64,000 nt of DNA from Murinocardiopsis flavida (GTDB lineage: Bacteria > Actinomycetota > Actinomycetes > Streptosporangiales > Streptosporangiaceae). The stretch's first letter is position 1. Each line of letters starts with the position of its first letter. This document shows, in pieces, positions 19,324 to 36,102 of the stretch. The notes under the pieces were generated by a model. The model was not told the DNA's origin. It did no database searches and was given only the letters and a program-made list of their open reading frames with translations. Made by a program: the position numbers and the translations under genes. The stretch covers positions 248,001 through 312,000 of the forward strand of contig NZ_PYGA01000004.1 in the NCBI RefSeq assembly GCF_003014485.1, in the 5' to 3' direction.

Positions 19324-20843
19324 GGTGTGGTGGGCTCCGTTCCGTCGGGAGGGGTGGTTCCGGTCGGTCCGCTGTGCGGGGCGGCTGCGGCGCGCAGCTC
19401 GGGGGCGACCTGGTCGGCGTCTGTGGTGCGGTCGACCATGACCTCGGTGTCGGGTGTGAACAGCCGCTGGACGCGCGCCGGTGCGTCGATCGCGATGAGG
19501 ACGATGACGACGAAGGTGAGGCCGAAGGCGAGCCCGCCGAGGGCGACGGCGAGGCTGGTGCGCTCGGCGATCTGCGCGCCGATCACCGGTGCCGCCGCGC
19601 CGCCGAGCGCACCCACGTTGTAGGTGAACCCGAGCCCGGCCGCGCGCTGGGAGGTGTCGAAGTAGCCTCCGATGAGCTTGGGCAGCAGCCCGGAGATGCC
19701 CTGGCCGAACGCCTGCTGGAGGAAGAGCAGCGCACCGAGCAGCAGGAGCAGGTCGCCGCCCATAGCGAACACCGGCAGGATGAAGACCAGGGAGATCCCC
19801 AGGCTGATGACGTAGGCGTACCGGGTGCCGAGCCGGTCGCCGAGGAAGCCGCCCATCCAGCAGCCGACCATCGTGCCCAGCCCTGAGAACGCCAGGACGC
19901 CGCTGACCTGGCCGGGGGTGTAGTCGAGTTCGGTTTGGAGGTAGGTCGGCAGCAGCGCCTGGATGGGCCAGGAGTACAGGAACGCGCAGAACACCACGAC
20001 CATGAGGGTGATCATCATCGGGGTGCGGGAGCGGGCGAACTGCGCGGCGAACCCGATGAGCCCCGCGGCGGCGACCGCGATGAGCAGCCACACGGCCCAG
20101 CCCGACGCCCCGAGCGCGAAGATCCCGAACAGGGCGCCGAACACGGCGATACTCGCGAGGACGTTGAACGGCGCGACCCGCCCGGTGTAGAGGACCTCGA
20201 TGAAGGAGTCCTCGCGCTTGGCGGCCGCCTGGTGCTGCCAGTCGGGCGCCTCGGGGATGCCGCGGCGCAGCCACAGCGCGAGCGCGATCGGCAGGATCCC
20301 GATGAAGAACAGGGACCGCCAGCCCAGCGCCGGCACGACCAGCGCGTAGGCCTGCGCCGCGAGCACGCCGCCCAGGGAGAAGCCCGAGATGAGGAATCCG
20401 CTGGCCCGGTTGCGCAGGGCGCGGGGCCAGCTCTCGATGACGTAGGTCGCGCTGGCGCTGTACTCGCCGGCCATGCCGAGTCCGACGACGAGCCGGGCGG
20501 CGAACAGCGTCCAGTACCCGACGGCGAGCCCGCACGCGAAGGTGCCCACCGAGTACAGGACGATGCTCAGGACCATCGCGGGACGCCGGCCGTAGCGGTC
20601 GCCGACGGCGCCCAGCGCGAGGCCGCCGAACCAGCGGGAAATGAACGCGGCGGACACCAGGGTCGCGACCGTGACCGTGTCGAGGTGGAACTCACGGCCG
20701 ATCTCGGTGAGGACCAGTGTGATCAGGACGAAGTCGAAGCCGTCCATGGCGTAGCCGAGCCACGCCGCGAAGAACGCCTTCCAGTCCTTTCGGGACAGTT
20801 GCCGGTACCACCGTGTGGTCGGTGGGCGTGCGGGGGGAGCCAT
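19320..20843 (-). CDS. nanT: MFS sialic acid transporter NanT-like
   Basis: 507 residues, many hydrophobic helices. The opening matches E. coli NanT as I know it: [46 protein letters not shown] and GDRYGRR. The central [17 protein letters not shown] and [18 protein letters not shown] are close as well. It should import free sialic acid with protons across the cytoplasmic membrane. It is first in the nanT-nanA-sialidase unit, 98 bp from the divergent FadR-type regulator gene, with a perfect palindrome between them. No N-acetylmannosamine kinase/epimerase or NagAB genes are in the window, so the later steps must be encoded elsewhere. Confidence 0.92.
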
Positions 20844-20868
20844 GTGCGCCTCCTGGCCGTGCCTCGTG

Positions 20869-20897
20869 ACTCATCCCACATGGGACATGGGATGAGT
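20869..20897. promoter_or_regulatory. palindromic operator between nanT and its regulator
   Basis: ACTCATCCCA and TGGGATGAGT form perfect 10-base arms round a nine-base centre. It lies in the 98-bp divergent promoter region, 45 bases before the regulator start and 26 from the transporter start. It is the likely site for the FadR-type regulator, possibly relieved by a sialic-acid metabolite. Confidence 0.75.
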
Positions 20898-20941
20898 AGG
20901 TACCGTAATCTCGGAACCACCGGCTGACAAGAGGGAGATCG

Positions 20942-21628
20942 ATGAGAGCCAACGGGCCAGAGCTCCAGGACCGGATCATCGACCTGATCCTCGACCGCGG
21001 ATTCGCCCCTGGCGCGGCCATGCCATCGGAGCCCCGGCTGGTCGAGGAGCTGGGTGCGAGCCGCAACTCCGTCCGCGAAGCACTGCGCGCCCTGCACACC
21101 CTCGGAATCGTGGAGATCCGGCACGGCTACGGCACGTTCGTCGGGCAGGCACCGCTCACCGCGTTCGCCCCCGGCCTGCTGTACAGCACCCGCCAGTCCG
21201 TCCGCTCCGACCCCGCGGCGCTGGGCGAGCTGCTGGAGGTCCGGCGCATCCTCGAAGCGACCCTGATCGAGCAGGTCGTGGAGCGCGCCGACGACGCGTT
21301 CCTCGCCGAGTTGGACGACGCGGTCACCGCCATGGACGCAGAGGGGCTCTCGTCGGCCGACCGGAACTTCCACCAACTCCTGTACCGGCCGCTGCACAAC
21401 CGGTTCGCCGGACAGCTCATCGAGCTGTTCTGGGTCGTGTACCACCAGGTCGAGTCGGAACTCGAACCCGCGGGCGATCCCGAGGAGATCCGGCGCGGGC
21501 ACCGCGGCATCGTCGACGCCGTGCGCGCGGGCGACCCCGCCGCCGCGAAGGCCGCCATGACCCGCCACTTCACCGACATCGAAGCCAGAGTCGCCCGCGT
21601 ACGCGCCCACCACCACGCCCCCGCCTGA
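20942..21628 (+). CDS. GntR/FadR-family regulator of the sialic-acid genes
   Basis: 228 residues. N-terminal winged helix (about 5-75): MPSEPRLVEELGASRNSVRE then IVEIRHGYGTFVG. C-terminal FCD domain (about 95-220) with the metal-ligand pattern expected from DRNFHQLLYRPLHN (His), H in RRGHRGIVDAV and H in MTRHFTDIEARV. GAGGGAG precedes the ATG. It is transcribed away from nanT with a perfect inverted repeat between, so it probably represses the sialate genes and itself, comparable in position to NanR of E. coli. The ligand is inferred from context only. Confidence 0.9.
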   Translation: MRANGPELQDRIIDLILDRGFAPGAAMPSEPRLVEELGASRNSVREALRALHTLGIVEIRHGYGTFVGQAPLTAFAPGLLYSTRQSVRSDPAALGELLEVRRILEATLIEQVVERADDAFLAELDDAVTAMDAEGLSSADRNFHQLLYRPLHNRFAGQLIELFWVVYHQVESELEPAGDPEEIRRGHRGIVDAVRAGDPAAAKAAMTRHFTDIEARVARVRAHHHAPA

Positions 21629-21986
21629 CCCGCCGGTGCGGCAACCCGGTACGCGGGATCGGGGGGCGTGGTGTCCGGTTTTCGCGGGTGGGGCGAGCCT
21701 GCGGCAAGGCGGGGTGACCACCCAGACGTCATGCGGATGCTGTCTAGATTGTCCCTCCCATCGACTTCTCACGATGTGAGACGCGAGGAGTAATGGGGTG
21801 CCGCACCCGGGCCGCTGACCTGCCCTTCTGTGCAGGGCGATGCGCCGACCCCACCCAATGCCGTGGACTCAACGGGAACGACGGCGTGCTCACGCACCCT
21901 GCGACTCGGGCGCCAGAAGGACTGCCGCTGCGCGGCACCGTGCGGAAGCGGGCACGGGCACCCGGAGACGAGACCGTCCCAGAAGC

Positions 21987-22321
21987 CAGGCGCCCGCGGG
22001 CGAGGGCGTCCTTGCCCCCAAGGGACGGTGCCCAGGCTGCCGGGGTGCCTGCGCAGCAGCGACGGCCGACACACATCCCGCACCTCGACCGCCAGGCCCG
22101 ACGCCGCGCGGAACCCACCGCAACCACGCCCGGGCGCCCCGCCCGCACCAACACCACAGCACTGTCAGTGACAAGCACCCCCGGTCGCGCGCTCAGTACG
22201 CGGCGGGCCTTGGGCGTCCACCCCGGCGTCTGCTTCGGCCGTCGCTGCTGCGCAGGCTCCCCGGCAGCCCAGCCCAGGTCCGCTGGGGGCAAGGACGCTC
22301 TCGGCACCCACCCCCGGCATG
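21987..22321. repeat. dispersed ~335-bp element A with inverted arms
   Basis: The left arm (about 21987-22069) and right arm (about 22235-22304) are imperfect reverse complements, sharing a core CTGCGCAGCAGCGACGGCCGA. The loop holds GGAACCCACCGCAACCACGCC. A second, similar element lies at about 34665-34976 with the same arms, loop motif and right end (CACCCACCCCCGGCATG). No supported gene lies in 21629-22633. The conserved fold suggests a structured noncoding repeat or MITE-like element; no family is recognised. Confidence 0.75.
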
Positions 22322-22476
22322 AATACGCGGCCCGCCGACAAGGCCGCGCAGCAGACGAACCGACCACCCCGGAAGCCGGATCGATACCGCCGAACCCCGA
22401 CCCCTCGCCGCCGTTGGCGCTGCTTCTGACCACAGACCACACGTCCGCGGACCAGCGAGAAGGCCGCCCCGCGGAC
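22322..22476. repeat. fragment related to the 2.3-2.8 kb inverted repeat
   Basis: GACAAGGCCGCGCAGCAGAC at about 22337 and GCCGTTGGCGCTGCTTCTG at about 22410 resemble parts of the 2608-2780 arm, in changed order. It ends with a hairpin of GTCCGCGG and CCGCGGAC (22443-22476). The match is short and imperfect. Confidence 0.45.
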
Positions 22477-22633
22477 GGGCCGAGCCGACAGTCCACTTGT
22501 TCACCAAGTCAACGGAACGGGGGTGGTGCGGCGGCCTTCGGCATCGCGGAGGCGACGGGGCATGGCGAGCCCGGTGCTCCTTCGGTGCCATGGCGCCTGG
22601 GTCCGCGCCGCGCGAAACACGGGCGGGCCGGGC

Positions 22634-23551
22634 TCAGGTCCCCGGTGCCGTCAAGGCGCGGCGGGCCGAGTCTCGCAACGTCGCCACCACGGCCGGAACC
22701 GGGTCGGGCGGACGGCGGCGGTGGACCACGTAGATCTCCCGTGCGAGAGCCGACTCCGGCAGCGGGCGCGCGGTCCAGCCTCCGGGCGGGGCCGCGCCCA
22801 GGATGCTGCTCGGCACGAGTCCGACCCCGACCCCGGCGCGGATCAGCGCGAGCATCACCTCGTAGTCGCGGGTCTCGTACGCGACCTCGACCGACACCCC
22901 TTCGGCGCGCGCGGCCGCCTCCAGCGCGACCCGGTTGGAGATGCCGGGGGCGCCGCAGATCCACTCCTCACCGGCGACGTCGCCCAGGCCCGGCCGGGCG
23001 CTGCGCGCCGCCGGGTGGTCCTCCGGGAGCACGAGCAGCAGCGGGTCGACCAGGATCTGCTCGCGGTGCAGCCCCGTTGCGGCGGGCAGGGTGACGCCCG
23101 GATAGCGGTGGGTGACCAGGAGGTCGAGGTCGCCGGACGTGACCAGCCCGTACCCGTCGGGCGGCTCGACGTCGGACAGTGCCAGGCGCACGTGCGGGTG
23201 TGTCCGGCCGAACGCCACGATCGCCCCGGGGACCAGTACCTTGCCCGCGCTGGCGAAGGCGCCCAGCGCCAGCCGGCGCGGCGCCTCGCCCGCCGCCGCG
23301 CGCACCGCGGCCTCGGCGTCGCGCAGTTCGCCGAGGACCCGCTCGCCGTAGGCGAGCAGCACCCGCCCCGCCCCGGTGAGCCGGACGCCGGTGCGGCCGC
23401 GCTCGACCAGGACGCAGCCCACCTCCCGCTCCAACTTGGTGAGCTGCTGGGAGAGCGCGGGCGGTGTGAACGACATGCGCTCGGCAGCGCCCGAGATGGA
23501 TCCGGCGTGTGCGACCTCCACGAGCACGCGCAACCGGTTGGCGTCTAGCAC
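22634..23551 (-). CDS. LysR-family transcriptional regulator
   Basis: 305 residues from GTG 23551. The HTH opens directly: LDANRLRVLVEVAHAGSISG, then PPALSQQLTKLEREVG. The rest is a LysR substrate-binding domain (about 90-295) with FGRTHPHVRL, LDLLVTHRYPG and GVGVGLVPSSILG. The frame stays open upstream to 23767, but that extension is encoded by an in-frame 66-bp tandem repeat. It is unlike any LysR N-terminus, so I exclude it. The divergent neighbour is a PLP-dependent dehydratase, its likely target. A T-N11-A palindrome lies in the shared promoter region at 23797-23809. Confidence 0.9.
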   Translation of the reverse strand: MLDANRLRVLVEVAHAGSISGAAERMSFTPPALSQQLTKLEREVGCVLVERGRTGVRLTGAGRVLLAYGERVLGELRDAEAAVRAAAGEAPRRLALGAFASAGKVLVPGAIVAFGRTHPHVRLALSDVEPPDGYGLVTSGDLDLLVTHRYPGVTLPAATGLHREQILVDPLLLVLPEDHPAARSARPGLGDVAGEEWICGAPGISNRVALEAAARAEGVSVEVAYETRDYEVMLALIRAGVGVGLVPSSILGAAPPGGWTARPLPESALAREIYVVHRRRPPDPVPAVVATLRDSARRALTAPGT

Positions 23552-23556
23552 GGCGG

Positions 23557-23755
23557 CCCCGCGGTCGTGCGTCCACGCGGACGGGACCCGGCCCGCTTCC
23601 GCAGAAGGGCCCGGCGCACCGGCCCCGGAGTCGTGCGTCCACGCGGATGGGGCCCGGCCTGCTGCCGCCGGAGAACTCGGCGCACTGGCCCCGCGGTCGT
23701 GCGCCCGCGCGAACCGGGTCCGGCCCGCTGCCGCCGGGCGGCCGGGCGCGGACCG
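23557..23755. repeat. 66-bp tandem repeat, three copies
   Basis: Copies start at 23557, 23623 and 23689; the first two share the block TCGTGCGTCCACGCGGA and the third a variant. The 66-base period equals 22 codons, so the minus frame stays open and would encode a repeated THD-containing peptide before the LysR protein. It lies in the LysR/dehydratase intergenic region. Confidence 0.8.
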
Positions 23756-23796
23756 GGTCCGCCGCACCTACGCACGCTCCGCACCGACCTCCAAGC

Positions 23797-23809
23797 TAAG
23801 CACTGCTTA
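23797..23809. promoter_or_regulatory. LysR-type operator TAAGCACTGCTTA
   Basis: Perfect 13-bp palindrome of the T-N11-A form used by LysR regulators. A half-site (CTAAGCAG) follows at 23816, near a possible minus-10 (TTATCT, about 23831) for the plus-strand dehydratase gene. Confidence 0.65.
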
Positions 23810-23865
23810 ATCATCCTAAGCAGCGCCAACTTTATCTTATGGCTGGATCGGGGCAGAGTAGGGGC

Positions 23866-24792
23866 ATGAGACCGAGCACGGCAGTCCCGACGCGTATCCC
23901 TACCGCTGTCGACGTCCTCGCCGCGGCCGACCGCATCGCCGCCCACGCGCGCCGCACCCCGCTGCTGCACAGCGAGATCGACGGCCGCCCGGTCACCCTG
24001 AAACTGGAGCACCTCCAGCTCACCGGGGCGTTCAAACTCCGAGGGGCGCTCAACGCGCTGATCGCCGGAGGCATCACCGACCGGGTCGTCACCGCCTCTG
24101 GCGGCAACCACGGCCTGGGCGTCGCCACGGCGGCCGCCCGCCTCGGCGTCTCCGCCGTCGTCTACGTGCCCGAGACCGTCCCCGACGCCAAGGCGCGCCC
24201 GCTCGCCGCCACCGGCGCAGAGATCGTCCGGGTCGGCGACCACTACGCCGAGGCCGCCGCGGCGGCACGCGCCCGCGCCGAGACCGAAGGGGTGCGCTAC
24301 CTGCACGCCTACGACGACCCCGACGTCGTCGCCGGGCAGGGCACCATCGGCTACGAGATCGCCGCCGACGCACCCGAGTGCGACACCATCGTCGTGGCAG
24401 TGGGCGGCGGCGGCCTTGCCGCGGGCGTCCGGCAGGGCTGCGGCGACCGGCTCGTGGTCGGCGCCGAGCCCGAGGGGTGCCAGAGCCTGCACGCCGCACT
24501 GGCGGCCGGCCACCCCGTCGACACCACCGTCGACTCCGTGGCCTCGTCGGCGCTCGGCGCCGCCCGCCTCGGCGACATCCCCTTCGCCGTACTGGAGGCG
24601 AACCCCATCACACCGGTCCTGGTCGACGACGCGGAGATCATCGCGGCGCGCGACCGGCTCTGGACGGAGTTCCGCATCGCCGCCGAACCCGCCGCCGCCG
24701 TCCCGTTCGCCGCATGGCTGGCCGGACGCGTCCCCGGCGAGCACCCGTGCCTCGTGGTGTGCGGCGCCAACGCCGAGTGGACCCCGGCCTGA
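23866..24792 (+). CDS. PLP-dependent threonine/serine dehydratase-like enzyme
   Basis: 308 residues from ATG 23866; an ATG at 23839 is possible, but a TTATCT minus-10-like box sits right before it. PLP Lys is in GAFKLRGALNAL, phosphate and substrate loops are SGGNHGLG and GGGGLAAG. The fold type II enzyme deaminates threonine, serine or a hydroxy-aspartate-like substrate to a keto acid. It lacks the C-terminal ACT regulatory domain of biosynthetic IlvA, so a catabolic role fits. It is divergent from a LysR gene with an operator-like palindrome between. A second enzyme of the same family lies at 36089-37060. Confidence 0.88.
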   Translation: MRPSTAVPTRIPTAVDVLAAADRIAAHARRTPLLHSEIDGRPVTLKLEHLQLTGAFKLRGALNALIAGGITDRVVTASGGNHGLGVATAAARLGVSAVVYVPETVPDAKARPLAATGAEIVRVGDHYAEAAAAARARAETEGVRYLHAYDDPDVVAGQGTIGYEIAADAPECDTIVVAVGGGGLAAGVRQGCGDRLVVGAEPEGCQSLHAALAAGHPVDTTVDSVASSALGAARLGDIPFAVLEANPITPVLVDDAEIIAARDRLWTEFRIAAEPAAAVPFAAWLAGRVPGEHPCLVVCGANAEWTPA

Positions 24793-24811
24793 CCCGCAGC
24801 GGACTCCCACG

Positions 24812-24826
24812 CCCCGCCCGGCGGGG
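24812..24826 (+). terminator. weak terminator after dehydratase
   Basis: CCCCGCC and GGCGGGG form a tight stem 20 bases after the stop codon. There is no T run. Confidence 0.35.
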
Positions 24827-25005
24827 AAGGCGCCCCGACTCCGAGACGGGTACGCCATCCACACCCGCCTCGCGCTCGATCCGCACCCGACCCGCGCCCT
24901 GACACGTACCGGACACACGGTCAGCGGGGCGCCCATTCGCGATCTGGCACACGCCGGACGCGGGCTCGGTCGGGGTACCGGTCTGGTCGACCCCGACCAG
25001 GACGT

Positions 25006-25045
25006 CCTTCGGCGGTCGCTGCTGCGCAGCAGCGACCGCCGAAGG
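25006..25045. repeat. perfect 40-bp palindrome sharing the dispersed-element core
   Basis: The sequence CCTTCGGCGGTCGCTGCTGC is followed directly by its exact reverse complement. The centre matches the core of the arms at 21987-22321 and 34591-34976. It lies in the gene-free stretch 24793-25195 between a plus-strand and a minus-strand gene, so it could also stop transcription. Nothing else is recognised in that stretch. Confidence 0.85.
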
Positions 25046-25195
25046 CTACCCCATCGCCCGAAAGCGGGACCGGCGGCGACGCAGGACCCGGTATCCCGGC
25101 GTCCGTTCAGCAGGGCCCGGCCACACCTCGTGTGCCCTCGCACTCTCCGGGCGCCCTTTGCCGCCGCGTGCCGTACCGGACGGGCGGCGCCGGTG

Positions 25196-25504
25196 TCAGC
25201 CGTCCGGGGTCGACTGCGATCCGGCACCCTCGATGGCCTGCTCGATGCGCGCGGCGATCTCCACGTCCTGCGCGGTGACACCGCCCGCCTCGGGCGTCGC
25301 CACCCGCAGGACGACGCCGTTGGGCGTCTCCACGGTGGCGACGTGGTCGCGGGCGTCACCGCTCACCTGCGCGACGACCATGCGGAACTCCGCCACGCGG
25401 TCGGTCGGCGCGAGCCGGGCCAGGCTGTCCACCTGGTGCTCCCAGTTGGCAAGGCCGACCAGTGCCGTTGCGACGTCCTCGTCACTCAGTGGTTCCGCTG
25501 TCAT
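25196..25504 (-). CDS. pterin-4a-carbinolamine dehydratase-like protein, active site degenerate
   Basis: 102 residues from ATG 25504, with GAGGAGAGG about ten bases upstream. It follows the PCD/DCoH fold: LSDEDVATALVGLANWEHQ at the start, LARLAPTDRVAEFRMVVAQV in the middle, and TPEAGGVTAQDVEIAARIE at the end, equivalent to the THDxGGLTxxDIxLA pattern. The usual catalytic His-His-Pro segment is replaced by DHVATVE, so dehydratase activity is doubtful. It may be a structural or binding relative. It is divergent from the PlsC gene, with no pterin-dependent hydroxylase nearby. Confidence 0.72.
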   Translation of the reverse strand: MTAEPLSDEDVATALVGLANWEHQVDSLARLAPTDRVAEFRMVVAQVSGDARDHVATVETPNGVVLRVATPEAGGVTAQDVEIAARIEQAIEGAGSQSTPDG

Positions 25505-25841
25505 GGCTGCTGCCTCTCCTCGGTCGGGCGCGTGCGCGCGGTTCCCGCCTTCGGGGACCCCGCTCTCGCCCGGGCCTCTACCCGGCGCCGCGCACGCCAT
25601 CCCCGCCATCCCCGCCGTCCCCGCACCCCCGCGTCCCAGCGCCCGGTGTTTCCACCCCTGCTTCCACCCCTCGCGCGCCCCATGCCCGCACGCATCTGCA
25701 CATCCCGCCGCAGCACAGCGGGGCCTCGGTCCGCTGCGGAACCGCCGCCCGGGTGCCGGCCGGGGACGCCGTGCGGGTAGGTTGCCAACTGTTCACCGGT
25801 ACGGCCCCCACCGCCCGGACCTGCGCGACGAGGAGGCAGCA
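25505..25841. other. 337-bp divergent intergenic region
   Basis: It lies between the PCD-like (-) and PlsC (+) genes and must contain both promoters. It is proline-codon-like C-rich sequence (runs such as CCATCCCCGCCATCCCCGCC at about 25600) without a gene, clear minus-10 or palindrome. Confidence 0.4.
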
Positions 25842-26516
25842 GTGCTCTACAGGACGATCCGGCGGACCTGTTCGGCGCTCGCGCGAGCCGTCTACCGGCC
25901 CCGGATCGAGGGCCTGCACCACGTCCCGACCCGCGGCCAGGTGATCCTCGCCAGCAACCACCTGTCGTTCTGCGACAGCGTGGTGATCCCGCTCGCCGTG
26001 CCCCGCCGGGTGCGGTTCCTCGCCAAGTCCGACTACTTCGACGGCCCCGGGCTGAAGGGCCTGGCGTCCAAGGCGACGTTCGGCGCGCTCGGCGCGATGC
26101 CGGTCAGGCGCGGCACCGGGCGCGACGCGATGACCGCCCTTGAGGACGGCCTGAACGTGCTGAACAACGGCGAGGTGTACGCCATCTACCCCGAGGGCAC
26201 CCGGTCCCGCGACGGCCGCCTGTACCGGGGTCGCACCGGGGTGGGGTTCCTGGCGCTGGCGTCCAAGGCGCCGGTGGTTCCGGTGGCACTGTGGGGCACT
26301 CAGGAGATCCAGCCCATCGGGGCGCGGATGCCGCGGGTGCGCCCGATCCGGGTCCGGTTCGGCGCGCCCCTGGACTTCTCCGCCGGGTACGACCACCTGG
26401 CGTCGGGGAAGGCGCGCCGGGTGGTCACCGACGAGATCATGGACGCCGTGCACAGCCTGTCGTGCCAGGAGCGCGCCGACATCTACAACGAGCACGCCGA
26501 CCGCGATGCCCTGTGA
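25842..26516 (+). CDS. plsC: 1-acyl-sn-glycerol-3-phosphate acyltransferase
   Basis: 224 residues from GTG 25842, five bases after AGGAGG; the open frame upstream is not coding-like. The acyltransferase H-x4-D motif is NHLSFCDS at about 41, the phosphate-binding motif is YPEGTRSRDG at about 116, and VPVALWGTQEI is the later conserved block. It transfers an acyl chain to lysophosphatidic acid at the inner face of the membrane to make phosphatidic acid. It is convergent with the aminopeptidase gene and has no lipid-synthesis neighbours. Confidence 0.92.
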   Translation: MLYRTIRRTCSALARAVYRPRIEGLHHVPTRGQVILASNHLSFCDSVVIPLAVPRRVRFLAKSDYFDGPGLKGLASKATFGALGAMPVRRGTGRDAMTALEDGLNVLNNGEVYAIYPEGTRSRDGRLYRGRTGVGFLALASKAPVVPVALWGTQEIQPIGARMPRVRPIRVRFGAPLDFSAGYDHLASGKARRVVTDEIMDAVHSLSCQERADIYNEHADRDAL

Positions 26517-26562
26517 CCCGGCCCGGCCGCCGCCGGGCCCGGTCAGCGGCCGGGCCCGGTCG
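26517..26562. terminator. GC-rich bidirectional terminator region
   Basis: Overlapping stems built on CCGGGCCCGG repeats (for example CGGGCCCG, nine-base loop, CGGGCCCG) lie between the convergent plsC and pepP genes. Confidence 0.5.
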
Positions 26563-26572
26563 CGGTCGGTCC

Positions 26573-28081
26573 TCAGCCCTGCGGGGCGACGCGCGCCATC
26601 CACGCCTCGACGTCGGCGGCGGTGCGCGGCAGCCCGTCCGACAGCACCCTGTTCCCCTCCGGGGTCACCAGCACGTCGTCCTCGATGCGCACACCGATCC
26701 CGCGCAGTTCCTCGGGCACCGTGAGGTCGTCGGGCTGGAAGTACAGCCCCGGCTCGACGGTCAGCACCATCCCCGCTGCGAGGCGGCCGTCGATGTAGTC
26801 CTCGGTGCGGGCGACGGCGCAGTCGTGGACGTCGAGGCCGAGCATGTGGCCGGTGCCGTGCAGGGTGTAGCGCCGTTGCAGGCCCAGTTCGACGACGCGC
26901 TCCACGGGACCGTCGAGCAGGCCCCACGCGATGAGCCCTTCGGCGAGGATCCGCTGCGCGGCGTCGTGGAAGTCGCGGTAGGCGCGGCCCGGCGCGACGG
27001 CGGCGATCCCGGCCTCCTGCGCGGCGAACACCAGGTCGTAGACGCGGCGCTGGGTGTCGGTGAACGTGCCGCCGATGGGGATGGTGCGGGTGACGTCGGC
27101 GGTGTAGAGGGTGGTGGTCTCCACACCGGCGTCGAGCAGCAGGAGTTCGCCGGAGCGCACGGCGCCGTCGTTGCGCATCCAGTGCAGGGTGGTGGCGTGC
27201 GGCCCGGCGGCGGCGATGGTGCCGTAGCCGACATCGTTGCCCTCGACCCGGGCGCGCAGGAAGAACGTGCCCTCGATGTAGCGCTCGGAGGTGGCCTGCG
27301 CGGCGTCGAGGGTGCGCACGACGTCCTCGAACCCGCGGACGGTGGAGTCGACGGCGCGCTGCAACTGGCCGATCTCCCAGTCGTCCTTCACCAGGCGGGC
27401 GTCGTCGATGTGGATGGCGAGTTCCGCGTCGGCATCGTCGGTCGTGTCGGCGTCGGCATCGGCGCGCAGCTCGGCGAGGGCCTGGTCGAGTTTCGCGTCG
27501 TGGCCCCGGACAATGCGCGTGGGGGCGGCGGGCGCCTCGCGCAGCACGGTGTCGAGGGTGCGGACGTCGGCGGCGTGCACACCGAGGAGGCGGCCCGCTT
27601 CGGTCAGGCTGTCGCGGCGGCCCGACCAGAGTTCGCCGTGCGCGTCGAGCCAGAACTCGCCGTTATCGCGGTTGGAACGGGGGCGCAGGTAGACGGTCGC
27701 GTCGTGGCCGCCGTCGGGGCGCGGTTCGAGCACCAGGCAGCCGTCGTCGGACTGGTCGCCGGTGAGGTAGACGTAGTCGCAGGCGGCGCGGAACGGGTAC
27801 TCGGTGTCGTTGGAGCGGGTCTTCAGTCCGCCCGCCGGGATGACGAGCCGCTCCCCGGGGAAGCGGGCGCTGAGTGCGGCGCGGCGCTTGGCGGCGTAGG
27901 GCGCCTGCTCGATCGGCTCCAGTTCGCTGCGCTCGGTGTCGGCCCAGCCGGTGCGCATCCACGCGGACAGTTCGTCGGAGACGCTGCGGTACACGCCGTT
28001 CTTGCGGGACTTGAACACCGGGGCGCCGTCGGCCGCTGCGGTGTCGGGGGGCGGCTGCTGCTGTCCCTGGTGTTCGGTCAC
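26573..28081 (-). CDS. pepP: Xaa-Pro aminopeptidase (aminopeptidase P, M24B)
   Basis: 502 residues from GTG 28081, eight bases after AGGAGG; an upstream in-frame ATG at 28129 is less well placed. The N-terminal half is the aminopeptidase P creatinase-like domain. The C-terminal metallopeptidase has all five dinuclear-metal ligands: Asp in LLLDAGVETTTLYTADVTR (two), His in HGTGHMLGLDVHD, Glu in TVEPGLYF and Glu in GVRIEDDVLVTPEG. It removes N-terminal residues preceding proline in the cytoplasm. It is convergent with plsC and stands alone. Confidence 0.95.
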   Translation of the reverse strand: MTEHQGQQQPPPDTAAADGAPVFKSRKNGVYRSVSDELSAWMRTGWADTERSELEPIEQAPYAAKRRAALSARFPGERLVIPAGGLKTRSNDTEYPFRAACDYVYLTGDQSDDGCLVLEPRPDGGHDATVYLRPRSNRDNGEFWLDAHGELWSGRRDSLTEAGRLLGVHAADVRTLDTVLREAPAAPTRIVRGHDAKLDQALAELRADADADTTDDADAELAIHIDDARLVKDDWEIGQLQRAVDSTVRGFEDVVRTLDAAQATSERYIEGTFFLRARVEGNDVGYGTIAAAGPHATTLHWMRNDGAVRSGELLLLDAGVETTTLYTADVTRTIPIGGTFTDTQRRVYDLVFAAQEAGIAAVAPGRAYRDFHDAAQRILAEGLIAWGLLDGPVERVVELGLQRRYTLHGTGHMLGLDVHDCAVARTEDYIDGRLAAGMVLTVEPGLYFQPDDLTVPEELRGIGVRIEDDVLVTPEGNRVLSDGLPRTAADVEAWMARVAPQG

Positions 28082-28335
28082 GGTCAGGACCTCCTCGGTC
28101 GGTTCGGCCGCAGGAAGCGCGGCGTGCACACCCCCGATGGTAGGACGTGTCCGCTGTGTGCGCTTTCACCACTCCGGCGACCCAGTCGTTGCGGGGACGG
28201 CCGTCACAGGGGGTTGGGCTGCCGTCGCGGCTCACGGTCCGTTCCCCGGGCCGACCCGGGGCCGTTGAGGGCTGGGGACGGATCCTAGACTGGCGCCGAC
28301 GCTCCCGTTGGGCGGAGCACCGTTGTGGGGGCGTG

Positions 28336-28980
28336 ATGGTCGACGCGAGCGCTTTTGCGGGGATCGCCTTGGTGGGGCTCGGACTGGTGCTGACCCCCGG
28401 GCCGAACATGGTCTACCTGGTGTCGAGGTCGGTGACCCAGGGGCGGCGGGCCGGGTTCGTCTCGCTGGCGGGCGTCGCGGTGGGGTTCTTCGTGTACCTG
28501 GCCGCCGCCGCGCTGGGCATCGCGGCGCTGTTCGCCGTGGTGCCGCAGCTCTACCTCGCGGTCAAGCTCGCGGGAGCGGCGTACCTGCTCTGGCTCGCGT
28601 GGCAGACCGTGCGCCCCGGTGCCAGGTCGGTGTTCGACCCGCAGCCGCTGCCGACGGAGCCCGCGCGGCGGCTGTTCGCGATGGGGCTGCTCACCAACCT
28701 GCTCAACCCGAAGATCGCCATCCTGTACGTGTCGCTGCTGCCGCAGTTCGTCGACCCCTCCCACGGCAATGTCGCGGCGCAGAGCCTGGTGCTCGGGCTG
28801 GTGCAGATCGCGGTCGCCCTTGCCGTCAACGGGCTGATCGTCCTCACGGCGGGGACCTTGGCGGCGTTCCTGGGCAGGCGGCCGCTGTGGCTTCGGGTCC
28901 AGCGCTACGTCATGGGCTCCGTGCTCGCGGGACTGGCCGTGCACGTGGCCACCGACCGGTCGCGCGCCGCCGTCGCCTGA
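28336..28980 (+). CDS. LysE/RhtB-family amino-acid exporter
   Basis: 214 residues from ATG 28336 (GGGGG five bases upstream; an adjacent GTG at 28333 is also possible). The N-terminal signature LTPGPNMVYLVSRS identifies the RhtB branch. About six hydrophobic helices follow, with LLNPKIAILYVSLLPQFV in the middle. Members export amino acids or their analogues from the cytoplasm. The substrate cannot be told from sequence. Transcribed alone; short direct repeats follow. Confidence 0.92.
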   Translation: MVDASAFAGIALVGLGLVLTPGPNMVYLVSRSVTQGRRAGFVSLAGVAVGFFVYLAAAALGIAALFAVVPQLYLAVKLAGAAYLLWLAWQTVRPGARSVFDPQPLPTEPARRLFAMGLLTNLLNPKIAILYVSLLPQFVDPSHGNVAAQSLVLGLVQIAVALAVNGLIVLTAGTLAAFLGRRPLWLRVQRYVMGSVLAGLAVHVATDRSRAAVA

Positions 28981-29012
28981 GTCCGGGCCCGGAGCCGCCC
29001 GCAACGACACTC

Positions 29013-29075
29013 CAGGGCGGTGCTGCTCGAGGGCAGTACGGCCACAGGGCGGTACCGCTTAAGGGCAGTGCGGCC
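29013..29075. repeat. two direct copies of a 32-bp unit
   Basis: CAGGGCGGT...GGGCAGT(A/G)CGGCC occurs at 29013 and 29045 in the 177-bp gap before the molybdopterin oxidoreductase gene. The two copies differ at several positions. Confidence 0.65.
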
Positions 29076-29157
29076 GGAGGTCGGCGCGGCCGGAGCGCGG
29101 TGGTGCCACCCGACAATGTTGCTACAGGTGTAGCGGAATCTCTGGTAGAAATGCGCC

Positions 29158-31263
29158 ATGAGCGGCGAGCGGACGCGCCATGGCGCGTGCACCCTGTGCG
29201 AGGCCATGTGCGGCCTGCGGGTCGGCACCAGCGGCGACCGCATCACCGCCATCCGCGGCGATCCCGACGACCCCCTGTCCCGCGGGCACATCTGCCCCAA
29301 GGCCCTCGCCCTCCAGGACGTCCGGGACGACCCCGACCGGCTGCGCCGACCCGTCCGGCGCACCGCCACCGGATGGCAGGAGATCTCCTGGCCCGAGGCG
29401 ATCGCGATCACCGCCGACGGCCTGGCCGCCGCCCGGCGCGACCACGGCGCCGACGCCGTGGCCAGCTACCTCGGCAACCCCGGCGTGCACAGCCTCGGCA
29501 CGATGACGCACGCCCCGCCGTTCGTGCGCATGCTGGGCAGCCGCAACCGGTTCACCGCCACCTCACTCGACCAGCTCCCGCACCACGTCGTCAGCAGGCA
29601 CCTCTACGGGCACCAGTGGCTGCTGCCCGTCCCCGACATCGACCGCACCGATCACCTGCTGGTCTTCGGCGCCAACCCCGCGGTCTCCAACGGCAGCCTC
29701 ATGACCGCCCCCGGGATCGTGCGCCGGATCCGCGCGCTGCGCGAACGCGGCGGGACCCTCGTCCTGTTCGACCCCCGCAGGACCGAGACCGCCCGGCTCG
29801 CCGACGAGCACCACTTCGTGCGGCCCGGCACCGACGCCGCGCTGCTGCTCGCCATGGTCCGCGTCATCCTGGACGAGGGCCGCGCCGCCCCGGCCGCCTA
29901 CGTCGACGGCCTCGACCGGGTGGGCGCGGCCGTCGACCCGTTCACCCCGGACCGCGCCGCCGCGGCCACCGGGGTGGCGGCGGCGACCATCGTCCGGGTC
30001 GCCCGCGACTTCGCCGCCGCCGGAGCGGCCGCCGCCTACGGCCGCACCGGGGTGTCCACCCAGCGCCACGGCGCACTGTGCCATTGGGGGATCCAGCTCC
30101 TCAACGTGGTCACCGGCAACCTGGACCGGCCCGGCGGCACCCTGCTCTCCCGCCCCGCGGTCGACCCGATCCGATCGGGCCTGCTCGACTCCGGGCACGG
30201 CGGCCGCTGGCACAGCCGCGTCCGCGGCCTGCCCGAGTTCGGCGGCGACCTGCCCGCGAGCGCCCTCGCCGAGGAGATCGGCACGCCGGGCCCGGGCCGG
30301 GTGCGGGCGCTGCTCACCGTGGCCGGCAACCCGGTCCTGTCCGCACCCGGCGGCCGGCGGACGGACGCCGCGCTGGCGGGGCTGGACTTCATGGCGGCCG
30401 TGGACTTCCACATCAACGAGACGACCAGGCACGCCCACGTCATCCTGCCGCCGACGGCCCCGCTCGAACGCGACCACTACGACCTGGTGTTCCACATGCT
30501 CGCCGTGCGCGACACCGCCCGCTACACCCCCGCTCCCCTCCCCCGGCCCGAGGACGCGCTGCACGACTGGGAGATCCTGCGCGACCTGTCCCGCGCCTAC
30601 CGCCGCCGCGTCCGCCGCGCCGGACGCTGGGCGGACCGGCTGGCACTCGCCTGTTCACCCGCCCTGCTGGTCGACCTGGGCCTGCGCGCGGGCCCCTACC
30701 GGTTGTCGCTGCGCGCGCTCGCCGCGCACCCCAGCGGTGTCGACCTCGGGCCGCTGAAACCGTCCCTGCCGAAGCGGCTCGCGACCCGCGGAAAGCGCGT
30801 CGACGCCGGGCCGGCGGAGCTGACCGGCGCTGCGGCGGACGCCGCCGGCGCGCTCCTCGCCCCCGCGGACGGAGGGCTGCTCCTCATCGGCCGCCGCCAC
30901 GTGCGTGCGAACAACTCCTGGATGCACAACCATGCGCGGCTGGTCAAGGGTGCGCCGCGGCACCACCTCCTCGTCCACCCCGATGACCTGGCCGAGCGCG
31001 GGATCGCCGACGGCGAGCGGGTCCGGCTCCGTTCGGCCGAGGGCGCCGTGGAGGTCGAGATCGCGGCCAGCGCCGACGTGATGCCCGGTGCGGTGAGCCT
31101 GCCGCACGGGTACGGCCACGACCGGCCCGGTGTCCGGCTCGGCGTCGCCGCCGCGGTGGCGGGCGCCAGCGCCAACGACGTCACCGACCCCGCCGAGACC
31201 GACGCTGCCTCGGGCGCCGCGGTGCTCAACGGCGTCCCGGTCACCGTGGAGCGGATCGCGTGA
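29158..31263 (+). CDS. molybdopterin (bis-MGD) oxidoreductase with one 4Fe-4S cluster
   Basis: 701 residues. The N-terminal iron-sulfur domain has C11-x2-C14-x3-C18-x27-C46 (CTLCEAMC ... GHICPKA). The Mo-bisMGD catalytic domains follow (LLVFGANPAVSNGS, LFDPRRTETARLAD, TGNLDRPGGTLL, HINETTRHAHVILPPTAPLE). The C-terminal dinucleotide-binding domain starts near RRHVRANNSWMHNHARLVKG. This is the formate dehydrogenase/NasA-like DMSO-reductase superfamily. No selenocysteine codon or Tat signal is seen, so it is cytoplasmic. No beta subunit, ferredoxin or membrane partner is adjacent; the electron partner and substrate are unknown. Confidence 0.9.
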   Translation: MSGERTRHGACTLCEAMCGLRVGTSGDRITAIRGDPDDPLSRGHICPKALALQDVRDDPDRLRRPVRRTATGWQEISWPEAIAITADGLAAARRDHGADAVASYLGNPGVHSLGTMTHAPPFVRMLGSRNRFTATSLDQLPHHVVSRHLYGHQWLLPVPDIDRTDHLLVFGANPAVSNGSLMTAPGIVRRIRALRERGGTLVLFDPRRTETARLADEHHFVRPGTDAALLLAMVRVILDEGRAAPAAYVDGLDRVGAAVDPFTPDRAAAATGVAAATIVRVARDFAAAGAAAAYGRTGVSTQRHGALCHWGIQLLNVVTGNLDRPGGTLLSRPAVDPIRSGLLDSGHGGRWHSRVRGLPEFGGDLPASALAEEIGTPGPGRVRALLTVAGNPVLSAPGGRRTDAALAGLDFMAAVDFHINETTRHAHVILPPTAPLERDHYDLVFHMLAVRDTARYTPAPLPRPEDALHDWEILRDLSRAYRRRVRRAGRWADRLALACSPALLVDLGLRAGPYRLSLRALAAHPSGVDLGPLKPSLPKRLATRGKRVDAGPAELTGAAADAAGALLAPADGGLLLIGRRHVRANNSWMHNHARLVKGAPRHHLLVHPDDLAERGIADGERVRLRSAEGAVEVEIAASADVMPGAVSLPHGYGHDRPGVRLGVAAAVAGASANDVTDPAETDAASGAAVLNGVPVTVERIA

Positions 31264-31318
31264 GCAGCACGCTCCCGGGATGGGCGTGACGGGGTCCGCG
31301 CGGGTACGACTAACGGGG

Positions 31319-32134
31319 ATGGACACGAACCGCATCTTCTCCGAGCGGCGGGGGCACGGCAGCCCATTGGTGCTGCTGCACGGGCTGGGGCACCGGGGGC
31401 AGGCGTGGTACCCGGCGCTGAACGCCCTCAGCGCCCGGCACGAGGTCTTCGCGATCGACCTCCCGGGTTTCGGCCGCTCCCCGGCACCTGATCCCAACGA
31501 GCCGTATACGGTCCTCTCGCTGACCGACACCATCCAGGAGTGGTGCGCGGGCATGGGGTTGGACCGGCCCCACCTGGCGGGCAACTCACTCGGCGGCGCG
31601 ATCGCCCTGGAACTCGCGGTGCGCGGCGCTGCGGCGTCGGTGACCGCGCTGGCGCCGATCGGCTTCGGGTCGCCGCGCAGCGAGGCCCGGACCCGGCTGC
31701 TCGCGCTCGGCGCCCCGGTCGCGGCGCTCATCCCCGAGTCCGTCCGGCTCGCCGCGGCGGGCAGCCGGCCGGGCCGGGCACTGGCGCGGCGGGTCCTGCG
31801 CGGCAGCATCACCGGCGCGCACACCCGCCAGGTGACCTTCGACGCGCGGGCGCTGTCGAGCGGGTCGTCCCTCGTCCGCCTCGCCCGCGAGGTCGCGGCC
31901 TACCACTACCGGCAGCGGGAGATCGCCTGCCCGGTGACCATCGCCTGGGGCGACGGCGACCGAGTGCTGCCGCCCGGGAACGCGCGGCGCGCCCTGCGCC
32001 GGGTCCCCCACGCGCACCTGGTGGTCCTGCTGGGGTGCGGCCACATCCCCGTCGCCGACGCGCCCGGCGTGGTCGCCGACACCATCCTGCGCACCTGCGC
32101 CGAGGCGGAGGGTCACCGCGCGTTGGGCCCGTAG
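31319..32134 (+). CDS. alpha/beta hydrolase
   Basis: 271 residues from ATG 31319. Oxyanion loop LLHGLGHRG, nucleophile elbow GNSLGG (Ser), acid in WGDGDRVLPP and catalytic His in GCGHIPVADAPG: a complete triad. The overall form resembles MhpC/haloperoxidase-type esterases of the cytoplasm; the substrate is not predictable. It starts 55 bp after the molybdopterin oxidoreductase and may share its transcript. The 3' end overlaps a convergent small membrane-protein gene by 22 bp. Confidence 0.9.
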   Translation: MDTNRIFSERRGHGSPLVLLHGLGHRGQAWYPALNALSARHEVFAIDLPGFGRSPAPDPNEPYTVLSLTDTIQEWCAGMGLDRPHLAGNSLGGAIALELAVRGAAASVTALAPIGFGSPRSEARTRLLALGAPVAALIPESVRLAAAGSRPGRALARRVLRGSITGAHTRQVTFDARALSSGSSLVRLAREVAAYHYRQREIACPVTIAWGDGDRVLPPGNARRALRRVPHAHLVVLLGCGHIPVADAPGVVADTILRTCAEAEGHRALGP

Positions 32135-32331
32135 CGGGTGTCGACCTCACCCGGATCGTCGGGGTCGCCGGAGTTGCCGACGATGGCGGCGATCGGCGGC
32201 AGCACCATGGCGACCAGGCACATCGCCAGGGCCCACCCGGTACCGGCGAGGTACCACACGGGCAGCGACCCCGCGAACAGCACCAGGCAGGCCGTCATGA
32301 GCCAGGCGTACCTCCGCACCCGCCGCTTCAT
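32113..32331 (-). CDS. small two-helix membrane protein, DUF3099-like
   Basis: 72 residues: Arg-rich start (MKRRVRRYAW), two hydrophobic helices (about 11-30 and 33-52) separated by a short turn, then a charged tail (GDPDDPGEVDTRYG). The pattern fits the small DUF3099-type actinobacterial membrane proteins. Its ATG overlaps the stop of the upstream DUF2236 gene by 4 bp, indicating coupling. The 3' end overlaps the convergent hydrolase gene. Function unknown. Confidence 0.7.
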   Translation of the reverse strand: MKRRVRRYAWLMTACLVLFAGSLPVWYLAGTGWALAMCLVAMVLPPIAAIVGNSGDPDDPGEVDTRYGPNAR

Positions 32332-33275
32332 GCCTCCAGGCTACGCCTGCGCCCCGGCGGCGCCGGGTCCGCGCGCCGGCCAGGTGTCGGCCAGGTGTCG
32401 GGGTCGCCCAACCCCACGAACCCGCGCCGCAGGTCATAGCCTGCCGCCACCAGCCGCTCCCGCGCCGCGACCGAGCGGCGGATGGTGACCTCGTCGAACA
32501 GCTTGTTGTAGAGCGCCTGCGGGCTCGCGTGCAGGACCGAGCGCAGCACGCCCAGGGCGGCGGTCGCCGCAGGCTGCGTACCGGGGACCTCGGGCAGGAC
32601 CGCGTAGGCGCGGCGGGCCCACGCGGGGAGGGTGTGGTAGGCGAGCGCGCCCACCGGGAACCACAGCGGTTTCAGCGGCGCCAGCCCCTTCAGCCGCTCC
32701 GGTACGGCCGGCCACAGCAGGAACCGGACGGCCCGCACCGCCTCAGGGGTCGCGCGCAGTACCGGCCGCACCCCGGCCAGGTAGCGGCGCATCTCCGGCA
32801 CCGAGGCGGGGACGTCGACGGGGCGCAGCCCGACGTAGGCCGCCATGCGGGCCTGCTCGGCGAAGTAGCGGTCGGCGTCGCCCGGTGCGAGCCGCAGCCC
32901 GGCCCGCACGACCACCTCCAGGTAGGACACGACCTCGGCGCAGTGGACCCACAGGAGGAGGTCGGGATCGTCGGGGCGGTGCCGCCGGCCGGTCGCGGGG
33001 TCGGTGAACCCGAGCCGGCGGTGGACGGCGCGCACCCGCCCGGCCAGCGTCTCGGCCTCCGCGGGGCTGCCGTAGGTGGTGGTTGCGACGTAGTCGGCCG
33101 TGCGCAGCAGCCGCCCGGTCGGGTCGGCCATGAAGTCCGACCGCTGCCATACCCCCTGCATGGCGACCGGGTGCAGCGCCTGGAGCATCAGGCTGCGCAC
33201 ACCGGCCACCCACATGGCGCGGTCCAGGTGCACCCGCCAGGTGACGCTCTGCGGTGCCGCGACGGTGGGCTCCAT
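32328..33275 (-). CDS. DUF2236 / MpaB-family oxygenase-like protein
   Basis: 315 residues. The family is recognised by SVTWRVHLDRAMWVAGVRSL, LMLQALHPVAMQGVWQRS with its conserved His, DPDLLLWVHCAEVVSYLEV (second His) and the long helical C-terminal part. Members are haem-containing relatives of latex-clearing protein and fungal MpaB; most have no known substrate. There is no signal peptide. The small membrane-protein gene downstream starts inside this gene's stop codon, which suggests a membrane-associated complex. A 14-base direct repeat (TTCCGGCTACGTTT) occurs upstream near 33300. Confidence 0.88.
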   Translation of the reverse strand: MEPTVAAPQSVTWRVHLDRAMWVAGVRSLMLQALHPVAMQGVWQRSDFMADPTGRLLRTADYVATTTYGSPAEAETLAGRVRAVHRRLGFTDPATGRRHRPDDPDLLLWVHCAEVVSYLEVVVRAGLRLAPGDADRYFAEQARMAAYVGLRPVDVPASVPEMRRYLAGVRPVLRATPEAVRAVRFLLWPAVPERLKGLAPLKPLWFPVGALAYHTLPAWARRAYAVLPEVPGTQPAATAALGVLRSVLHASPQALYNKLFDEVTIRRSVAARERLVAAGYDLRRGFVGLGDPDTWPTPGRRADPAPPGRRRSLEA

Positions 33276-33448
33276 GGCCGACGGCTCCCTTCTCCGCTTC
33301 CCGGCTACGTTTTCCGGCTACGTTCCCCTGCTCCGGTGCGGTCCGCCGGTCCCATGGCGCGCCGCGGGACCATCCGATCACCGGCCGCGCCGCGGTGTCC
33401 AGGCGCGCCCGGGCGGGCCACCCCGTGGAGAAGGGTCGACCACCGCGC

Positions 33449-34486
33449 TCAGAGTCCGGCGGCGATCCCCGCGACCACATCGGCGGCGGGACCGGCCGCA
33501 GCGGACCGGAAGGACGTCCCGGCCCACAGGTGCAGGGTGTCGGCGTCGCCGACCCGGGCCGCCTCGGCGCGCAGCGGTCCGGTGAGGTAGTGCACGTGCG
33601 GATAGGCGGCCGGGGCGTGCGCGCTGTGGCGGCGCAGGAACGCGTTGGCGAGACCGCGCGCGCTGCGGCCGCTGAACGCCCGTGTCACGGCGGTGCGCTG
33701 GAAGCGTTCGTCCGCGAGCGCGTCCTTGTGGGTCGCTTTGGCTCCGCTCTCCGCCGTCCGCAGGAACGCGGTGCCCGCCTGGGCGGCGACGGCGCCCGCG
33801 GCGCGGACCGAGTGCGCCGCGTCGGCATCGGCGATCCCGCCCGCCGCGACGAGGGGCAGGGCGACGGCGGCGCGCACCTCCGCCAGCACCTGCTCCAGGG
33901 TGGCCGCGGCGCCGCGGCGGCCGGTGTCATCGAAGGTCCCGCGGTGCCCGCCCGCTTCCGGGCCCTGGACGCACAGTGCGTCGGCACCGGATCGGGCCGC
34001 CGCCGACGCCTCGGCGGCGCTGGTGACCGTGACGGTCACGACGGTCCCGGCCTTGCGCAGCGCCGCCACGGCGCGCTCGGGCGGGAGGCCGAAGGTGAAA
34101 CCGACGTGCGGCACCGGGTCGGCGATCAGGGCGTCGACCTTGGCGGCGAAGTCGTCGTCGTGCCAGCGGGGCTCGCCCAATTCGACGCCGAGCGTGCGGG
34201 CCTCGGGTTCGAGGCGGGCCCGGTAGGCGCGCAGCGCCGCCGGGTCGGCGCGGTCGGGTCCGGGCACGAACAGGTTGACGCCGAACGGGCGGTCGGTGCG
34301 CAGGCGGGTCAGCCGGATCTGCTCGGCCATGGCCTCGGTGCTGCGGTACCCGGCGGCGAGGAAGCCGAGCGCCCCCGCTCCCGCGACGGCGGCGACGAGG
34401 TCCGGTGTGCTCGCCCCGCCCGCCATCGGCGCCGCGATCAGCGGCACGTCGACGCCGTCGAGGACACCACCCGAACCGCGCACCAT
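33449..34486 (-). CDS. nitronate monooxygenase (NPD family)
   Basis: 345 residues, an FMN TIM barrel. VPLIAAPMAGGASTPDLVAA opens the barrel; GADALCVQGPEAGGHRG carries the catalytic-type His; VAAGGIADADAAHSVRAAGA and AGTAFLRTAESG bind FMN phosphate. It oxidises nitroalkanes such as propionate-3-nitronate to carbonyl products and nitrite in the cytoplasm. It stands alone; the adjacent downstream gene in the same direction is 173 bp away. Sequence is fully typical. Confidence 0.92.
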   Translation of the reverse strand: MVRGSGGVLDGVDVPLIAAPMAGGASTPDLVAAVAGAGALGFLAAGYRSTEAMAEQIRLTRLRTDRPFGVNLFVPGPDRADPAALRAYRARLEPEARTLGVELGEPRWHDDDFAAKVDALIADPVPHVGFTFGLPPERAVAALRKAGTVVTVTVTSAAEASAAARSGADALCVQGPEAGGHRGTFDDTGRRGAAATLEQVLAEVRAAVALPLVAAGGIADADAAHSVRAAGAVAAQAGTAFLRTAESGAKATHKDALADERFQRTAVTRAFSGRSARGLANAFLRRHSAHAPAAYPHVHYLTGPLRAEAARVGDADTLHLWAGTSFRSAAAGPAADVVAGIAAGL

Positions 34487-34590
34487 GACCCCCAGTCTCG
34501 ACCGCCGCCCGGCCGACCTGCGTCCCGATCAAGGTCACCGCCGGGGGTGATCGGGACGCACCGCGACTCGTGGATCAATGGTAGAAGACG

Positions 34591-34976
34591 CAGGTGTCCG
34601 GGCGCGAGGACACCCTTACCCCAAGAGGACAGTGCCCAGGCTGCCACTGCGCGGAACAGCCGCAGGCGTCCGGGGGCGAGAACGTCCTAGCCCCAAGGGA
34701 CAGGAGCCAGGCTGCCGGAAAGCCTGCGCAGCAGCGACGGTCGACGCACACCCGCGCTATGACCGTCGGGCCCGGCGCCGCACGGAACCCACCGCAACCA
34801 CGCCCATTACCAAATCCGCGCCAGCACCGCAGCACCCCGCCACGCGATCAGTGCGTGGCAGGGCCTGAGCACCGAACCTCAACGTCTGCTTCGGCCGTCG
34901 CTGCTGCGCAGCCGCCTGGCAGCCCAGCCCAGGTCCGCTGGGGGCAAGGACGCTCTCGGCACCCACCCCCGGCATG
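34591..34976. repeat. dispersed element B with inverted arms and a duplicated left arm
   Basis: The left arm occurs twice in tandem (from about 34591 and about 34665, each beginning CAGG(T/C)GTCCGGG). The right arm (about 34885-34955) is the reverse complement and includes TTCGGCCGTCGCTGCTGCGCAG. The loop contains CGGAACCCACCGCAACCACG, as in the element at 21987. The right end CACCCACCCCCGGCATG is identical in both. No gene is seen in 34487-35195. Codon-like reading frames across it are by-products of repeat identity. Confidence 0.75.
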
Positions 34977-35128
34977 CAGCCGAGGCCACGACCCACCCAC
35001 CCCCGTACCAGGCCAAGACCCGCCCTCGAAGTCAACGGCATGGGAGACGTGCGGAACCGGATCACATGACGCAGTTCACTTTCAAGAACAGTGCATGCTT
35101 TGGTGAACGGTGATTACTCTTGATCTCA

Positions 35129-35156
35129 GGCCGGTTCGCGGATCCGCGAACCGGCC
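35129..35156. promoter_or_regulatory. perfect 28-bp palindrome before a small membrane-protein gene
   Basis: GGCCGGTTCGCGGA is followed directly by its reverse complement, ending 39 bases before the ATG at 35196. An AT-richer stretch (about 35080-35127) that could hold a promoter precedes it. It may be an operator or 5'-leader hairpin; no regulator is known. Confidence 0.55.
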
Positions 35157-35195
35157 GGTCCCAGCAACGATCCCCCGCAAGAGAGGCGGCAGCGC

Positions 35196-35396
35196 ATGGT
35201 CGACGGAGAACTCATCAGCACCGGGCTCGTCCTCCTCTGCGTCGGCATCGCCGTCGTCTTCGCGGGCGGGGTCGCGCTGATCGTCAGGCAGGCGCTCGCG
35301 CCCGACGACGGCGGGGCGCCCGAGAGGCCCGAGGCCGCGGACGCCCCCGGCGCCCGTCCGGCCCCCGCCCCCGAGCGCGTCCACGCGGCGGTCTGA
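35196..35396 (+). CDS. small single-pass membrane protein
   Basis: 66 residues. One hydrophobic helix at about 8-30 (GLVLLCVGIAVVFAGGVALIV) is followed by a Pro/Ala/acidic tail (about 35-66). Upstream, GAGAGG lies about nine bases before the ATG. No family is recognised. A perfect palindrome lies 39 bases before the start. The C-terminal tail would be cytoplasmic if the positive-inside rule holds (Arg-Gln after the helix). Real coding status is likely but not certain. Confidence 0.6.
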   Translation: MVDGELISTGLVLLCVGIAVVFAGGVALIVRQALAPDDGGAPERPEAADAPGARPAPAPERVHAAV

Positions 35397-35450
35397 CCGC
35401 GCCGCCACCGTCGTCCCCGCCGTCGCCGATCCCGCGCCGCCCCCGCGGCG

Positions 35451-35936: not shown

Positions 35937-36047
35937 TGTTGTACTTCCCCCGTTGTGTTCGTCGGTTTCCGACCGCCGCGGCCCGGACCGGGCCGTCCCG
36001 GTCCGGGGCGTCCGGGCGGCCGCGCACCTGCTTGTTCGTAGCCGGCC

Positions 36048-36102
36048 TTCTTGTGGCCGGTTGTACGTGGCCGGTTGTACGTGGCCGGCTATGCGTGGCC
36101 GG
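36048..36102. repeat. 14-bp tandem repeat, about four copies
   Basis: TTGTACGTGGCCGG and variants repeat at 36061, 36075 and 36089, with a degenerate copy before. The last copy overlaps the stop codon of the dehydratase gene at 36089. Confidence 0.75.

Follow-up and report, generated by a model that had tools for sequence, protein, structure and literature searches.

Likely MITE-like palindromic elements, nested in one another and apparently private to one genome, at gene ends in Murinocardiopsis flavida

The stretch of the Murinocardiopsis flavida genome analyzed here, a window of 64,000 nucleotides, contains two elements at 21987-22321 and 34591-34962 and a perfect palindrome at 25006-25045, all of which belong to one family of noncoding hairpin sequences. 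We consider it likely that the family consists of non-autonomous, MITE-like palindromic mobile elements that are private to this genome, are nested in one another and are tolerated, or used, as hairpins at the 3' ends of genes. The repeats have no coding capacity.

The initial annotation had described two elements of about 330 bp with common arms and a common loop motif, and both were present, with the middle motif GGAACCCACCGCAACCACG located at 22110-22128 (+) in element 1 and at 34784-34802 (+) in element 2. Element 1 (21987-22321, +) lies between a gene at 20942-21628 (+) and a convergent LysR gene at 22634-23527 (-), and is a nested inverted repeat of the type B-x-A-mid-A-x-B, in which A and B are half-sites and x is the 6-bp centre TGCGCA. 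Its left B half-site (22035-22049, +, GGCTGCCGGGGTGCC), left centre (22050-22055) and A half-site (22056-22069, +, GCAGCGACGGCCGA) are followed, after the middle motif, by a second A half-site on the minus strand (22235-22248, reading TCGGCCGTCGCTGC on the plus strand), the right centre (22249-22254) and the right B half-site (22255-22269, +, GGCTCCCCGGCAGCC). The unit of about 330 bp exists, but it belongs to a longer noncoding repeat at approximately 21668-22490, with about 655 bp plus a right extension common to copies L005, L006 and L007. Element 2 (34591-34962, +), which is of the same type, lies downstream of a gene at 35451-35936 (-) and upstream of a nitronate monooxygenase gene at 33449-34486 (-), with its left and right centres at 34725-34730 and 34905-34910. 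The additional tandem left arm reported for one of the elements was seen here as a degenerate B arm at about 34597-34646 (+). The right ends, described as identical, are shared by the two elements but are only near-identical.

Inspection of the sequence bore out that the 40-bp palindrome at 25006-25045 (centre TGCGCA at 25023-25028) is perfect and carries the same core as the two elements. Its description as the minimal form of the 330-bp element did not hold; it is instead the centre of an A-type palindromic element of the class of about 115 bp. This element, at 24964-25090, has a visible left inverted repeat (GGGGTACCGGTC) and a degraded right end, and lies between convergent genes at 23866-24792 (+) and 25196-25504 (-).

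The existence of additional copies had been set beforehand as a check on the two elements, and such copies proved numerous. Element 1, used as a BLAST query against its own genome, gave 121 matches, about 14 of them full length, and a search for the 21-bp core CTGCGCAGCAGCGACGGCCGA that allowed 3 mismatches or fewer found 103 places, as compared to 3 for a reversed control. A query with the palindrome added further places, and merging by position yielded about 76 loci, a few of which may be chance matches, on 31 contigs of the 7.4-Mb genome, whose assembly comprises 75 contigs. The 26-bp core of the palindrome was found with at most 2 mismatches at 16 places, including 25006-25045, and the middle motif GGAACCCACCGCAACCACG occurs 3 times genome-wide.

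All members of the family are built from two half-sites around TGCGCA, where A is GCAGCGAC(CG or GG)CCGA and B is GGC(TTT/TCC/ACC)CCGGCAGCC-like or GCCGCCTCGCAGCC. These modules were observed in three arrangements: A-x-A palindromes of about 115 bp; A-x-B-loop-B-x-A composites, which measure 300-500 bp and have loops with no sequence relationship to one another; and the inside-out B-x-A-mid-A-x-B form of elements 1 and 2. Once oriented, the full-length copies of the last type that were compared have a single fixed polarity. Four of the B-x-A copies, including the window's, are part of a longer noncoding repeat that exceeds 1.2 kb in three of them and has a further outer inverted repeat; other B-x-A copies have different outer shells in common, and the outer limits vary between copies. 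The repeat of more than 1.2 kb (L005 1257-2583, L006 ~760-2070 and L007 ~770-1985) has outer inverted repeats beginning GGGCGGCCTTCTCRC, includes a conserved stretch with TTGACC and could be transcribed. Additional variation was noted in several copies (L013, L014, L015, L018, L019, L022, L025, L113 and L121), in which a third hairpin module, CGCCCCTACTGCGCCGCTTCGCGATTGTCGCGCAGCGGGG, stands beside TGCGCA in one arm only, and in the composites L077 and L079, whose loops contain tandem repeats that are unrelated between the copies. In a single case (L026 1562-1590), the order B-TGCGCA-GC-AGCGCA-B, with two copies of x around 2 nt, looks like an excision footprint of the A-mid-A part.

The A elements terminate in inverted repeats GNGGCTGTTGGGGTRCC and are flanked by direct repeats of 3-5 bp in a CTNAG target. 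With respect to the features by which MITEs are recognized, the A-type elements carry GNGGCTGTTGGGGTRCCGG at both ends, and roughly half of 20 copies show a clear target-site duplication (CTNAG/TNA), while A elements L077, L078, L080, L094 and L168 have no matching duplication. When offsets outside the inverted repeats of the 20 elements were scanned, identical 4-mers peaked at offsets 10/9 (6/20), as compared to 0.17 on average for the 676 offset pairs, and the exact 5-bp flanking pairs were CTGAG, CTCAG and CGTAG. Left and right ends, with end anchors and end sequences set by eye, matched each other more often than under shuffled pairing (p about 0.001 or lower for the triplet). A target of C-TNA-G in which TNA is duplicated would fit this pattern best. 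Flanking duplications, proposed in the initial annotation as a sign of mobility, were found for the A family; the B-x-A copies end at different outer shells. Altogether, terminal inverted repeats, target duplications and dispersal beside unrelated genes support mobility of the A, or palindrome, family in this one genome, the genus being represented by a single species. The ends and mobility of the B-x-A type of elements 1 and 2 would follow from its kinship with the A family and from its dispersal. Mini-forms that have A ends and lack the TGCGCA core were also observed (L187 ~2210-2280, L181 ~2225-2300 and L179 ~2475-2500), and that of L187 begins at the stop codon of a gene; L182 carries a further mini-form.

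Profile searches of the genome for IS4/IS5-type transposases of families PF01609, PF13340 and PF13359 found none, and no autonomous copy with A ends was seen in an end-pattern search. Matches to the 17-bp end pattern were below background at 3 mismatches, and those with 1-2 mismatches led to the mini-forms and to no IS. The genome has an apparently single Y1 transposase (PF01797; L172, G000:C31:10500-15500), whose gene adjoins a divergent tnpB-like gene as in an IS605-like pair. As searches with PF01609, PF13340, PF13359, PF01797 and the end pattern found no autonomous parent with matching ends, our claim is limited to 'MITE-like'.

Gene neighborhoods, predicted with our own codon-usage gene finder, placed the elements 3' of genes or between convergent genes. 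Among 62 entries, 33 were convergent, 26 co-directional and 3 divergent (two window loci being entered twice, and 'divergent' at 34591 being based on a weak ORF), compared to a background of 13, 23 and 13, respectively, in the window. Additionally, 18/47 A-element ends have the stop codon of the adjoining gene at the boundary of the element; in 14 of these the register is identical, with the stop codon placed 10 nt from the inverted-repeat anchor. Counted by element, 17/26 have a stop codon at a boundary, whereas noncoding CTNAG sites would predict about 25% (p about 1e-5). The genes that end there are mutually unrelated, and their C-termini, as judged by eye, are natural-looking. These observations are most simply read as insertion into C-TGA-G with duplication of the stop, which would leave the gene unharmed because the duplication restores its stop codon.

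Both elements fold more stably than dinucleotide shuffles (z -7.9 for the element at 21987 and -6.3 for that at 34591). Identity between copies of the A elements is 95% in the core and 73% in the arms. The initial annotation had held that conservation of arms and loop pointed to selection or mobility of the structure and not to GC richness arising by chance, and had proposed covariation as a check. The first statement stood, but a constraint on pairing did not emerge: for 18 A elements the RNAalifold covariation term was about zero (+0.59), with a double change in 9/34 pairs, so that what is conserved in the arms is their sequence, and not demonstrably their pairing. Both arms changed together in L105 and L106, and the centre was lost symmetrically in L166-L168.

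The family was searched for beyond its own genome. The 26-bp palindrome core was found in 0/249 other genomes of the taxonomic family, and exact scans for either core pattern found neither in a GTDB contig collection of 84,980 species, from which the source genome or near ones may be omitted. The terminal inverted repeat of the A elements was at background level in 119 relatives, BLAST in 40 genomes gave only short matches at chance level, and no family sequences were found in plasmids and phages. An exact 19-bp core, GCTGCTGCGCAGCAGCGAC, occurs in a viral metagenome contig (L228 10822-10840) and may be a chance match. Literature searches turned up no earlier account of the family. Judged by these comparisons, the elements appear private to the Murinocardiopsis flavida genome.

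Amongst the other explanations, the elements may be functional bidirectional terminators or 3'-end stabilizing hairpins that were multiplied and kept by selection and are not selfish, a reading that we regard as possible though not probable. The sites 3' of genes or between convergent genes, with only 3/62 divergent, the very stable folds and the better conserved cores would all suit it. However, the sequence is private to the genome, whereas terminators require no common sequence, and the target duplications at A ends, the missing covariation signal in the 18 A elements and the majority of other gene ends without elements argue against it. A structured noncoding RNA, to which the common middle motif, the strong folding and the noncoding sequence of more than 1 kb common to the larger copies could point, seems very unlikely, given composite loops that are mutually unrelated, near-zero covariation of the A elements and an Rfam scan of 20000-37000 with no family above threshold and only weak, chance-level matches.

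Two further readings take TGCGCA itself as the site of action. Its centres could be active integration sites at which palindromes insert mid-element and concentric shells grow, with a dedicated enzyme that recognizes the half-sites, which we hold to be unlikely. We consider it quite unlikely that TGCGCA is the site of a site-specific recombinase or transposase, with circles or inserts bounded by A/B half-sites integrating at a 6-bp symmetric spacer and with A-x-A as attP/attB and A-x-B as hybrid attL/attR. The exact joining of A-x-A, A-x-B...B-x-A and B-x-A...A-x-B at TGCGCA, and half-sites and x that are far better conserved than the loops, would agree with such an enzyme. Yet no intact B-x-B site was found: B-x-B palindromes were considered as intact integration sites and dropped because they carry A remnants or deletions (L026, L098), resembling internal deletions. 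The fixed polarity of full-length B-x-A copies is explained by one event in an ancestor whose product was then copied, and the changes in the two x copies of L106 (TGCGAA/TTCGCA) are those of complementary arms and not of direct repeats. Least probable is a REP/BIME family moved by a RAYT (IS200/IS605-like) transposase, which is disfavoured, although extragenic palindromes near gene 3' ends, their mosaic combinations and the one Y1 transposase recall such systems (PMC3733652, PMC2817692). REP sequences are defined as palindromes of 20-40 bp with a GTAG/CGTC tag at one end (PMC3733652). The class was rejected here, the elements being 115-650 bp long, bounded by symmetric inverted repeats with target duplication and free of the tag. 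The REP-type transposase that the initial annotation had suggested looking for nearby showed no association with them, as no TGCGCAG core was found around the lone Y1 gene with its tnpB-like neighbor. IS200/IS605 elements are not known to make a target duplication.

The preferred reading, MITE-like mobile elements, can be compared with known systems. Bacterial MITEs such as Correia/NEMIS, ERIC/IRU and RUP are short and noncoding, with terminal inverted repeats, a small target duplication and strong hairpins, and the present family resembles them in its dispersed extragenic noncoding copies, inverted-repeat ends, small duplication and hairpins. It differs from them in its unrelated sequence, in concentric nesting around TGCGCA, in insertion often exactly in stop codons and in that no parent transposase was found. 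IS5-type elements (IS1031/ISL2 groups) and PIF/Harbinger have a 3-bp target duplication of TNA/TWA type in a CTNAG-like target, as do the A elements with TNA duplicated in CTNAG, but this genome lacks a transposase of the IS4/IS5-type Pfam families searched. We infer that the elements may have been moved by a transposase of the DDE type that has since been lost, or is unassembled or unrecognized. Many A elements entered stop codons of the form C-TGA-G or C-TAA-G, a copy of which would have been made by the duplication. The concentric forms, the B-x-A-mid-A-x-B elements among them, would have been built at the TGCGCA centre of one palindrome by repeated insertion or internal rearrangement; insertion into TGCGCA, site-specific recombination there, or rearrangement followed by copying of the product could each produce them. 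If transcribed, the long GC-rich hairpins would probably halt transcription from both directions or stabilize 3' ends, a role that would partly account for the survival of copies at gene ends. Position and fold make a terminator role plausible.

The concentric nesting of palindromes is unusual. Insertion into a stop codon with duplication of that stop would offer a mobile element a near cost-free route to colonize a gene-dense genome. The family may represent a genome-private radiation that has placed terminator-like hairpins at many gene ends, and would allow the idea that mobile DNA reshapes the 3' ends of genes to be tested.
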